From the NCBI GenBank assembly GCA_006226595.1, contig SBGP01000095.1, positions 1 to 64,000 on the forward strand: DNA of 64,000 nt, given 5' to 3'. Made by a program: the position numbers and the translations under genes. Shown piece after piece: positions 20,858 through 30,980 of this stretch. Position 1 is the stretch's first letter. Every line of letters starts with the position of its first letter. The notes under the pieces were generated by a model. The model worked only from the letters and a program-made list of their open reading frames with translations, searched no databases and was not told the origin of the DNA. The stretch comes from Deltaproteobacteria bacterium. Lineage in GTDB: Bacteria; Myxococcota_A; UBA796; GCA-2862545.

Positions 20858-24388
<3,531 letters not shown>

Positions 24389-25293: not shown

Positions 25294-25373
25294 TCGGCGT
25301 GCGAAATGCCACGATCGCGCGTGTGTTTCGGCACCATCGGCCCGCCCGCGCGCCTCCGACCCTCCCCGTGGGC

Positions 25374-25435
25374 CTGACCCCGATGGGGGCTCTGACCCCG
25401 ATGGGGGCTCTGACCCCGATGGGGGGTCTGACCCC
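25374..25435. repeat. Four 18-base tandem repeats (CTGACCCC spacing)
   Basis: CTGACCCC recurs at 25374, 25392, 25410 and 25428 in the unit CTGACCCCGATGGGGGCT. The last junction GGGGTC-T-GACCCC is a perfect inverted repeat. It lies in the 238-base gap between the PP2C gene and the next operon; it could be a REP-like element, an array of binding sites or part of a terminator. Confidence 0.8.
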
Positions 25436-25531: not shown

Positions 25532-25954
25532 ATGCACGCTCCCGAGACCCTGCCCACGCCGACGCAACTGCGGCGGAGAAAGCTGGTGGTCGGACTGTTC
25601 CTCGCTGTTCAGTTCGCGCTGCCCCTGTCGTACTACGCCTCCGGGAACCCCCTGGACGAGCGCTTCGCGTGGCGCATGTTCTCGCCCATCCGCATGGTCC
25701 ACTGCACCGCCACCTTCCACGAGGTCGGTCCGGAAGGACGCCGCCGCCTCGACCTCGGCAAGGAAGTCCCCGAGGTCTGGGAGACCTGGGTCGACCGCGG
25801 CCACACGCGGGTGATCCGCGAGGTCGGCGAGCACATCTGCACCCGCCGCGCGCGCCTCGGCCCCGAAGTGTCGGTGTACGCCGACGTGAGCTGCCCGATG
25901 CCGGACGGCACCCGCTTCCGTCCCCTCCCCGCCGAGGAGGACCTGTGTCGCTGA
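25532..25954 (+). CDS. Small membrane protein preceding the HTTM protein
   Basis: A 140-residue protein with one strong membrane span (KLVVGLFLAVQFALPLSYYA) near the N terminus, followed by a mainly polar domain (NPLDERFAWRMFSPIRMVHC and a Cys-containing end VGEHICTRRAR). Its stop overlaps the start of the next gene by ten bases. The start is uncertain; an in-frame ATG at 25469 would add 21 residues. The segment after the span, with its conserved-looking FAWRMFS, recalls the small partner proteins often found beside HTTM proteins. Confidence 0.6.
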   Translation: MHAPETLPTPTQLRRRKLVVGLFLAVQFALPLSYYASGNPLDERFAWRMFSPIRMVHCTATFHEVGPEGRRRLDLGKEVPEVWETWVDRGHTRVIREVGEHICTRRARLGPEVSVYADVSCPMPDGTRFRPLPAEEDLCR

Positions 25955-27333
25955 GCCGCCCCGAGCGCTTCTGGTTCGACCGCTCGATGGAGCCGGGTCG
26001 TCTCGCGGCCCTGCGCATCGGCTTCTTCACGCTGTTCGCCGTCGATCAGCTGCACCTCATGACCAGCCACGCATGGCGCTTCGGCGCCGGCGGCATCAAC
26101 CTCGCGCACTTCGACTGGCTCGACACGCTGCTCCCCCTGCCTCGCGTCGAGATCCACCTCGGTGCCTACCTGCTCTCCGCCTTCCTGTCACTGTGCGTGG
26201 CCGCCGGGATTGCCACTCGCGTGTTCATCCCGCTCATCGCGACGCTGTACGGCTACGCGTACTTCTCGTCGATGGCCGACGGCTACCAGCACCACTACCT
26301 GCTGTTCTGGATCCTGGTCGTGTGCAGCTTCGTGCGCTTCGACCAGGCGCCCGGCATCGCCTCTCCCCCCGCCGAGGGGCGCATCCGCAGCTGGGGCCTG
26401 TCCCTGCTCTACGCGCAGATCGCCATCGTGTACCTGTTCACAGCGATCACCAAGGTCGACCCCCAGTGGGTGAGCGGCTGGGCGCTGGAGCAGCAGGTAT
26501 CGACACCCTCGGTGCGCGCGCTGTTCGAGTCCACCAACGCCGCCCTCGGCCTCGGACCACTGGGTGCCTACGCCATCGTCGCGACCTCGGTGATGCTGTG
26601 GCAGTTCCTCGCCGCGGCCTCGTTCGTGGACGAGCGACTGCACGCCATCGCCTGCCTCACCGGCCTCGTCTTCCACGTGACCATCGAGTTCATCGGCATC
26701 GAGATCCGCTGGTTCTCGTACTACATGATCGCGCTGTACTACCTGCTCCTGCTGCCCGACACCTGGTACGCCTGGGTCGCGGAGCGCCTGTCGACGGCCT
26801 TCGCACCGCTCACCAGCGCCCTGTCGTCGCTGTTCGCGCCCATCGACCTCGACGAGCGACGCGCCGGGCAGATCACGGCCCTCGCCGCGTTCTTCGCGCT
26901 GGGCCTGGTCGGCAACAGCCCCCTTCCGGGCGCCGCCCTGCTCACCACCGCCGTGCTCGTCGCCATCGGCATCGCGTGGTGGACGGAACCGCGGACCCGC
27001 GGGGTCGCCGGACGGGGCGCAGTGTTCGTCGCCGCCGCCGCCGTCATCGGACTGGTGCCCCTGCGCAGCGGCGCGGTGTACGACTTCTACCGCTACCAGG
27101 GGGGCGACTACCTGCGCCGCGGCGACCTGCACAACGCCGCCGAGGCCTACTACGCGGCGATCGACGCCAACCCGGGCCCAGACAGCCGGCACGCCAAGCT
27201 CGCCACCGTGCTCGTCGAGCTCGGCCGCGAGCGGGAGGCCAAGGCCGTGCTCGAGCGCGGCCTGGCCCACGACCCGGATGACGCGAGGCTGAAGCGCCAG
27301 CTACAGGGGCTCACCGAGAAGGAGGGTTCGTGA
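25945..27333 (+). CDS. HTTM (vitamin K-dependent gamma-carboxylase-like) membrane protein with TPR tail
   Basis: A 462-residue protein. Residues 10-300 form the HTTM domain: helices with ALRIGFFTLFAVDQLHLM, LLFWILVVCSFVRFDQAPG, SLLYAQIAIVYLFTAITKVD and HVTIEFIGIEIRWFSYYM, as in the bacterial relatives of vitamin K-dependent gamma-carboxylase. More membrane helices follow to about 375, then a soluble stretch of two TPR-like units (GGDYLRRGDLHNAAEAYYAA). The animal enzyme carboxylates glutamate; what the bacterial forms do is mostly unknown. GAGGAGG lies before the GTG. Start and stop overlap both neighbours. Confidence 0.85.
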   Translation: MSLSRPERFWFDRSMEPGRLAALRIGFFTLFAVDQLHLMTSHAWRFGAGGINLAHFDWLDTLLPLPRVEIHLGAYLLSAFLSLCVAAGIATRVFIPLIATLYGYAYFSSMADGYQHHYLLFWILVVCSFVRFDQAPGIASPPAEGRIRSWGLSLLYAQIAIVYLFTAITKVDPQWVSGWALEQQVSTPSVRALFESTNAALGLGPLGAYAIVATSVMLWQFLAAASFVDERLHAIACLTGLVFHVTIEFIGIEIRWFSYYMIALYYLLLLPDTWYAWVAERLSTAFAPLTSALSSLFAPIDLDERRAGQITALAAFFALGLVGNSPLPGAALLTTAVLVAIGIAWWTEPRTRGVAGRGAVFVAAAAVIGLVPLRSGAVYDFYRYQGGDYLRRGDLHNAAEAYYAAIDANPGPDSRHAKLATVLVELGREREAKAVLERGLAHDPDDARLKRQLQGLTEKEGS

Positions 27334-28559
27334 CCTGGGAAGCCCTGTCCGAAGAGACGATCCGCCAGCGCGTGTTCGCGGCGCTCACCGAGAACCTGTC
27401 GTACGGCGAGGATGCCGTGCTCGGCCTGCCCGGCTCGTTCCTCGATCGCCGCGTGTTCCCGCCTCTGCCGGAGCTTGCGGGCTTTCCGCTCCTGTCCACG
27501 GTGCGCGCCAACCCCAACCACATCGGCTGCCACACCCTCGGCGACTCCGAGCCCGCCTTCGCCGGCACCCAGGCCATCGAGCGCGAGGTGATCACGCTGT
27601 GCGCCGAGTCCCTGCTCGGGGCCGAGCCTGGAACCATCGACGGCTACGTGGCCAGTGGCGGCACCGAGTCCAACCTCCAGGCCCTGTGGACCCTGCGCAA
27701 TGCCCTGCGCGAGTCGCACGGCTTCGGCCCTGGTGAGGTCGGCCTCCTCGCCTCGGAGGACACGCACTACTCGGTGCACAAGGCAGCGAACCTCATGGAC
27801 ATGCCGCTGTTCTCGGTCGCGGTGGACCCGAACACGCGCCGCATGCGCGCACCGTCCGTCCGCGACGCCATCGCCCAGGCCCGAGGCCGCGTGAAGGCGG
27901 TCGTCGCCGTGCTCAACATGGGGACCACGATGTTCGGCTCCATCGACCACGCCGACGACCTGCTCGTGCCGCTCGCCGAGGCCGGCATGCCGCACCGCAC
28001 GCATGTCGACGCGGCCTTCGGCGGCTTCGTGTATCCCCTCGTCGCCGAGCACCCCGAGCTCGACCTCCGCGACCCCCGCATCGACACCCTCACCCTCGAC
28101 GCCCACAAGATGCTCCAGGCGCCGTACGGCACCGGCATCCACCTCGCGCGCAAGGGCCTCATCCACCACGTGCTCACCGCTTCCGCCGCGTACGTGCCGG
28201 GCCTCGACTGCACCCTGTCCGGCAGCCGCTCCGGGGCGAACGCCGTCGCCGTGTGGATGATTCTCCGCAGCTACGGCTTCGCAGGCGGCCGCGCGTTCTG
28301 CCGCGAGCTGGTCGCACGCGCGCGTCGGCTGTGCGACGCCCTCGAGCGGGCGAACGTGCGCCACTACCGACACCCCGACATGAACGTCGTCACCATGCGC
28401 GCGGGGGACCTCCCCGAAGGCCTCGCCGAGCGCCACATGCTGGTCCCCGACAAGCACGACGGGCCCGCGGAGTGGCTGAAGATCGTGGTCATGGACCACG
28501 TCACCGACGGGAAGATCGACGCCTTCCTCGCGGACCTGCGCGCGAGCCAGGCCGCCTGA
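27330..28559 (+). CDS. Group II PLP-dependent amino acid decarboxylase-like enzyme
   Basis: A 409-residue fold-type I PLP enzyme of the glutamate/aspartate/tyrosine decarboxylase type. YVASGGTESNLQAL is the phosphate-binding helix, AAFGGFVYPL holds the region of the ring-binding Asp, and TLDAHKMLQAPYGTG contains the Schiff-base Lys. Length fits the shorter MfnA-like decarboxylases. GTG start overlaps the HTTM stop (GTGA), and the gene ends four bases from the convergent kinase gene. The substrate cannot be read. Confidence 0.85.
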   Translation: MTWEALSEETIRQRVFAALTENLSYGEDAVLGLPGSFLDRRVFPPLPELAGFPLLSTVRANPNHIGCHTLGDSEPAFAGTQAIEREVITLCAESLLGAEPGTIDGYVASGGTESNLQALWTLRNALRESHGFGPGEVGLLASEDTHYSVHKAANLMDMPLFSVAVDPNTRRMRAPSVRDAIAQARGRVKAVVAVLNMGTTMFGSIDHADDLLVPLAEAGMPHRTHVDAAFGGFVYPLVAEHPELDLRDPRIDTLTLDAHKMLQAPYGTGIHLARKGLIHHVLTASAAYVPGLDCTLSGSRSGANAVAVWMILRSYGFAGGRAFCRELVARARRLCDALERANVRHYRHPDMNVVTMRAGDLPEGLAERHMLVPDKHDGPAEWLKIVVMDHVTDGKIDAFLADLRASQAA

Positions 28560-28562
28560 CCG

Positions 28563-30980
<2,418 letters not shown>

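Follow-up and report, generated by a model that had tools for sequence, protein, structure and literature searches.

In animals, blood-clotting proteins are modified with the help of vitamin K by the membrane enzyme GGCX. GGCX belongs to the vitamin-K-dependent gamma-glutamyl carboxylases (VKGCs), single chains that carry an HTTM membrane domain and, after it, the last membrane helix, a linker and a lumenal domain. According to one study, K218 of GGCX deprotonates vitamin K hydroquinone, N159 binds the substrate Glu and M401 and M402 lie in the linker of the quinone pocket, with further roles assigned to H160, W223, F286 and F299 (PMC12589487). A second described arrangement is that of SdpA and SdpB, in which a small, membrane-anchored upstream gene touches or overlaps an HTTM gene, several loci adjoining a gene annotated as a sporulation-delaying-protein toxin. 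The HTTM protein CrdG is assumed to act in linaridin maturation, by a mechanism described as unclear (PMC9927463).

In the window (the whole stretch of 64,000 nucleotides analysed here), three genes, g1, g2 and g3, overlap head to tail as the preliminary description had stated, g1 and g2 by 10 bases and g2 and g3 by 4 bases (Table 1). We read g1 and g2 as jointly encoding one membrane enzyme of the VKGC superfamily, of which each gene supplies a subunit, i.e. a split VKGC-like enzyme, with a probability of roughly 0.78, because both halves are homologous to VKGC parts, the pair is adjacent across the phylum, and the quinone-pocket and catalytic residues are conserved. Where VKGC is a single chain, the pair makes two polypeptides, and the gene for the C-terminal half comes first. 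No description of g1-type partners of HTTM proteins was found in the open-licence literature searched, which is weak evidence of absence; the passages available from PMC12589487, PMC9927463, PMC5343777 and PMC10373908 hold none.

Table 1. Positions of the genes, domains and residues discussed, and HTTM loci of the source genome
Feature	Position	Strand	Remark
g1	25532..25954	+	ATG start, 140 aa
g1 membrane helix	residues 18-36		single helix by hydrophobicity, preceded by RRRK
g1 domain after helix			predicted periplasmic; four invariant Cys (58, 103, 121, 139)
g1 W47-R48-M49-F50	25670..25681	+	invariant in 13 aligned g1
g2	25945..27333	+	GTG start, 462 aa
g2 domains	HTTM, residues 13-272; TPRs, residues 385-460		about three further helices between HTTM and TPRs
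g2 H116	26290..26292	+	equivalent of GGCX H160
g2 K170	26452..26454	+	equivalent of GGCX catalytic base K218
g3	27330..28559	+	GTG start, 409 aa
g3 K260 (DAHK)	28107..28109	+	PLP lysine
Source-genome HTTM contigs	C1, C2, C14, C21, C26, C40, C62, C67, C76, C79
Source-genome HTTM loci	L002-L008, L056, L171-L173

The second gene matches Pfam HTTM (PF05090, E 4.7e-18) and TPR_19 (1.1e-8), and the relation to the glutamate carboxylase that had been proposed for it is borne out by the match of its HTTM profile to GGCX (9.4e-20). Profile-profile comparison with the HTTM domains of 30 fused bacterial VKGCs gives 99.6% (7e-25), and the first nine matches of the g2 structure model are all GGCX; a search with g2 on plasmids returned no match. 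The fusion of TPRs to HTTM, which the preliminary description had found unexpected, is real but is usual in the family and not specific to this locus. By helix count and an arginine-rich loop near residues 347-356, the TPRs probably lie in the periplasm, in a region where the g2 model has low confidence. The active-site residues K170 and H116 are both present. In an alignment of 44 split sequences, the K218 site holds lysine in 38 of the 41 that are ungapped there, and the H160 site holds histidine in 39 of 44 and tyrosine in the other 5. Such replacements, together with the TPRs, which are typical scaffolds, would fit a non-enzymatic HTTM-TPR protein that, with its partner, merely keeps the fold as a membrane receptor, scaffold or transporter. 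However, nearly all split sequences keep the lysine, the histidine, the aromatic residues of the pocket and the linker motif of g1, which a mere scaffold would not need, and we regard a non-enzymatic role as quite improbable.

The preliminary description overlooked g1 as the missing half of the carboxylase. Judged from sequence profiles and a structure model, g1 is homologous to the part of GGCX and other VKGCs that follows the HTTM domain, i.e. TM9, the quinone-lining linker and the lumenal substrate-binding domain. On its own, g1 has as its best Pfam match VKGC_lumenal_dom (PF22777; E 0.017), at 15.5 bits below the 27.7-bit cut-off; across the family, this domain is matched by 9 of 13 g1 proteins (best 1.7e-4), every other family by one at most (alignments A1 and A2 used 13 of 16 loci, with L010, G140 and G135 left out). 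The g1 profile aligns with the C-terminal part of the 30 fused bacterial VKGCs over 121 columns (96.3%, E 2e-9, profile-profile), and this alignment pairs W-R-M of g1 with the linker of the fused proteins; searched by sequence against PDB chains, the g1 profile gave no match. The W-R-M-F motif corresponds to W399-D400-M401-M402 of GGCX, the linker lining the vitamin K pocket. For an AF2 model of g1 (four input sequences, pLDDT 75), the top 16 VIA-align matches are all GGCX (Z 8.9 to 6.2, the next, unrelated match having 4.8), the best of which superposes 82 residues at an rmsd of 2.8 Å, with model residues 55-140 on GGCX 405-490. Foldseek likewise ranked GGCX first, with E-values of 0.08-0.3 that are not significant. 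As RRRK precedes the sole helix of g1, its domain should be periplasmic, on the same predicted side of the membrane as the lumenal domain of GGCX.

The residues K218, H160, W223, H287 and F299 of GGCX and the W-x-M linker are conserved in the pair. The pair also differs from VKGC: about three extra helices and the TPRs follow the HTTM domain, the lumenal domain of g1 comprises only about 90 residues, and the inter-domain disulfide C99-C450 is absent, the C99 position being A54 in g2. In addition, the site of N159 is Q115 in g2, with Q in 38 of 44 split sequences, whereas N is found in 30/30 fused ones. On account of the change from N159 to Q, the replacement of C99, and the extra helices and TPRs, we use the label ‘VKGC-like’ and do not claim carboxylation, and the earlier caution that the HTTM fold may not be a carboxylase here was a fair one. 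Fused VKGCs also occur in the phylum, the lumenal domain PF22777 being matched in 68 of 282 genomes (65 over the cut-off). In all 30 fused loci examined, the HTTM and lumenal domains share one open frame, with K and H at the K218 and H160 sites, and for L071, one of these, the alignment to human GGCX spans 19-489 (E 1.2e-45); the source genome has no fused VKGC over the PF22777 cut-off. In an HTTM tree of 78 sequences, the 30 fused VKGCs form a separate group (support 0.86), and 40 split sequences group with one other HTTM protein of the source genome at a weak support of 0.67-0.76.

The adjacency of g1 and g2 is widely kept. By tblastn, a g1 relative lies just upstream of the HTTM gene in 15/15 other loci first found with g2 (12 of 141 genomes with 13 places, among them the window itself, and 3 further loci). 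Among the loci used in the counts, L138 and L009 are one and the same contig, counted once. Profiles run over the 282 genomes of the phylum detect g1 in 37 genomes and g2 in 37, with a g2 match directly downstream on the same strand for 37 of 41 g1 matches; G275 adds a 38th g1 that has a weaker HTTM match directly downstream. In the exceptions, the two genes are 3.6 kb apart in G170 and on separate contigs in the two genomes of family f37, G171 (L158/L159) and G206 (L163/L164), which implies that the pair can be unlinked. Nor is the pair confined to one phylum, since it also occurs in a genome recorded as Planctomycetota (L010, 5474-5935 and 5932-7740). In the gene calls, 10 of the 13 aligned loci have g1 and g2 overlapping, by 1-11 bases; this, taken with the 37 adjacent matches, exceeds chance. 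Among 359 called neighbour genes, no further gene family is found beside the pair at more than 8 loci or in more than 3 families, and no conserved substrate gene was found.

Two-subunit HTTM genes of this layout recall SdpA-SdpB, and we compared the pair with 8 SdpA and 7 SdpB proteins from loci on seven plasmids and in one genome of the phylum. Were g1-g2 an SdpA-SdpB system, it would mature a secreted antibacterial peptide. The gene order is identical, sdpA then sdpB with the genes touching or overlapping, g2 is homologous to SdpB (97.5%, E 8.8e-12), the lysine is kept in 7/7 SdpB, and SdpA holds a similar W-x-F-F motif. However, SdpA is not detectably related to g1 (0.9% against the 8 SdpA, not significant), and SdpB is short, lacks TPRs and has the H160 residue in none of 5 ungapped sequences. 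Moreover, TIGR04034 (SdpA) matches only 1 of the 282 phylum genomes, which is not the source genome, and no SdpC-type peptide precursor was noticed among the genes beside the pair. The NCBIfam model of SdpA matches none of the 13 g1 members, and TIGR04033 (SdpB) matches 2 of 13 g2 family members, the g2 of the window not among them. An SdpA-SdpB identity of g1-g2 is unlikely; we rejected the identity and keep that system as an analogue.

The third gene, g3, encodes a group II PLP decarboxylase, MfnA/histidine-decarboxylase-like, with both the PF00282 fold (Pyridoxal_deC, 3.7e-21) and the PLP lysine present. No named decarboxylase model reaches its cut-off with g3; the MfnA-type tyrosine/aspartate decarboxylase (TIGR03812), which g3 resembles in fold and PLP lysine, gives 184.2 bits and thus falls below the 299.4-bit equivalog cut-off. 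The preliminary description had g2 carboxylate and g3 decarboxylate within one pathway or membrane complex. The overlap of all three genes and the retention of active-site residues in both g2 and g3 speak for such a scheme, but by tblastn g3 occurs in 0 of 46 other g1/g2 loci (four decarboxylase stretches and one duplicate left out; in five of the 46, either g1 or g2 is missing, and contig ends truncate several). Over 52 stretches, the only tblastn matches of g3 were in the window and in those four, which had been included for their decarboxylase. Its close relatives (53-74% identity), on contig C37 of the source genome and in G001 and G013, have no HTTM gene beside them, and G001 has g1/g2-type and g3-type genes on different contigs. 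In addition, enzymes of the g3 type are cytosolic, whereas a periplasmic location is predicted for the g1 domain. The absence of g3 from all 46 other loci leaves the carboxylase-decarboxylase idea unsupported, and we consider it highly improbable. A lack of conserved linkage, which the preliminary description had named as a refutation, thus applies to g3 and not to g1 and g2; of the proposed ‘pathway or membrane complex’, a membrane complex of g1 and g2 is supported as a reading, and a shared pathway that includes g3 is not. Probably, g3 is a local neighbour outside the conserved unit that by chance overlaps g2 in this genome, the g2-g3 overlap being genuine in the window and seen in no other locus examined. 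The paralogue of g3 on contig C37 (L055, 6391-7608; 73-74% identical) lies at the end of another gene cluster, which resembles a periplasmic nitrate reductase cluster.

For the split VKGC-like enzyme, we propose that the helix and the W-R-M-F linker of g1 would dock on g2 and so complete the quinone pocket which, as g1 supplies M49 and F50, would be whole only when the two proteins meet. With reduced menaquinone and O2, K170 would start a reaction yielding a strong base, which would deprotonate a side chain of an exported protein, with g1 and probably also the TPRs holding that protein; CO2 addition (carboxylation) is a putative further step. VKOR is no more common with the pair than without it, being present in 25 of 37 genomes with it (counted by eye from a listing) and in 170 of 245 without it (p 0.85). 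As menB gave nothing over its cut-off and an MqnC-like gene scores 359.6 bits against a cut-off of 428, the futalosine route to menaquinone is only suggested. If g1 and g2 do form one active site, the small upstream gene tells what must be co-expressed for activity, vitamin-K chemistry would become testable in a bacterial two-protein system, and mechanistic studies would gain a naturally divided counterpart of GGCX.

A similar partnership may extend to other HTTM proteins. The source genome has ten HTTM matches, nine of them over the cut-off, and all ten have a partner, which is a small gene directly upstream in eight cases and a C-terminal extension in two. The motif W-x-[ML]-[FY] is present in 7 of the 8 small upstream proteins and in none of the 74 remaining genes of that set that encode 100-230 aa (83 before nine g1 genes were subtracted). 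As this motif was written after the source-genome partners had been seen, we tested it on 40 HTTM loci from related genomes, chosen in list order and blind to their neighbours. This set leaves out the source genome, the g1-type loci G001:C99 and G028:C8, all matches after G012:C633 and the nine top-scoring matches (eight of them also PF22777 matches), as well as nine others within the range, G016:C61, G015:C951, G014:C296, G004:C151, G024:C824, G021:C37, G011:C586, G023:C192:75440 and G016:C14; L187 and L211 carry near-identical proteins. A motif partner was found in 35/40 loci, of which 32 have the motif in an upstream ORF that ends at the HTTM start and 3 have it behind the HTTM domain within one ORF; 5 loci have neither (one at a contig end), and the motif occurs in 1 of 188 downstream ORFs. 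The ORFs of this test run from stop to stop, and their lengths are thus upper bounds. Compared with g1 by profile, one of four source-genome partners matched (L006, 8.8e-6) and three did not (L002, L004, L005), so that the wider rule rests on motif and position. We tentatively suggest that bacterial HTTM proteins could in general be the membrane half of a two-subunit enzyme with a small upstream W-x-M-F partner, VKGC being the fused form, and that they could share a quinol- and oxygen-dependent strong-base chemistry that acts on exported proteins or peptides with varied outcomes, be it carboxylation or other changes that follow from the loss of a proton. A common quinol-driven strong base across HTTM enzymes, including those of SdpA-SdpB and linaridin, is a conjecture; if true, the rule would also give a mechanism for these two.

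Finally, a scan of the three-gene locus for promoters and terminators found nothing. An 18-base tandem repeat (GGGCTCTGACCCCGATGG, 3.7 copies) occupies window positions 25370-25435 in the gap just upstream of g1, and further upstream a 6-base repeat, present 24 times at 23477-23621, encodes a Glu-Pro run within a long protein (20858-24388). On the other side, a convergent gene on the minus strand (28563-30980) resembles, as judged by eye, a Ser/Thr kinase with a formylglycine-generating-enzyme-like domain.
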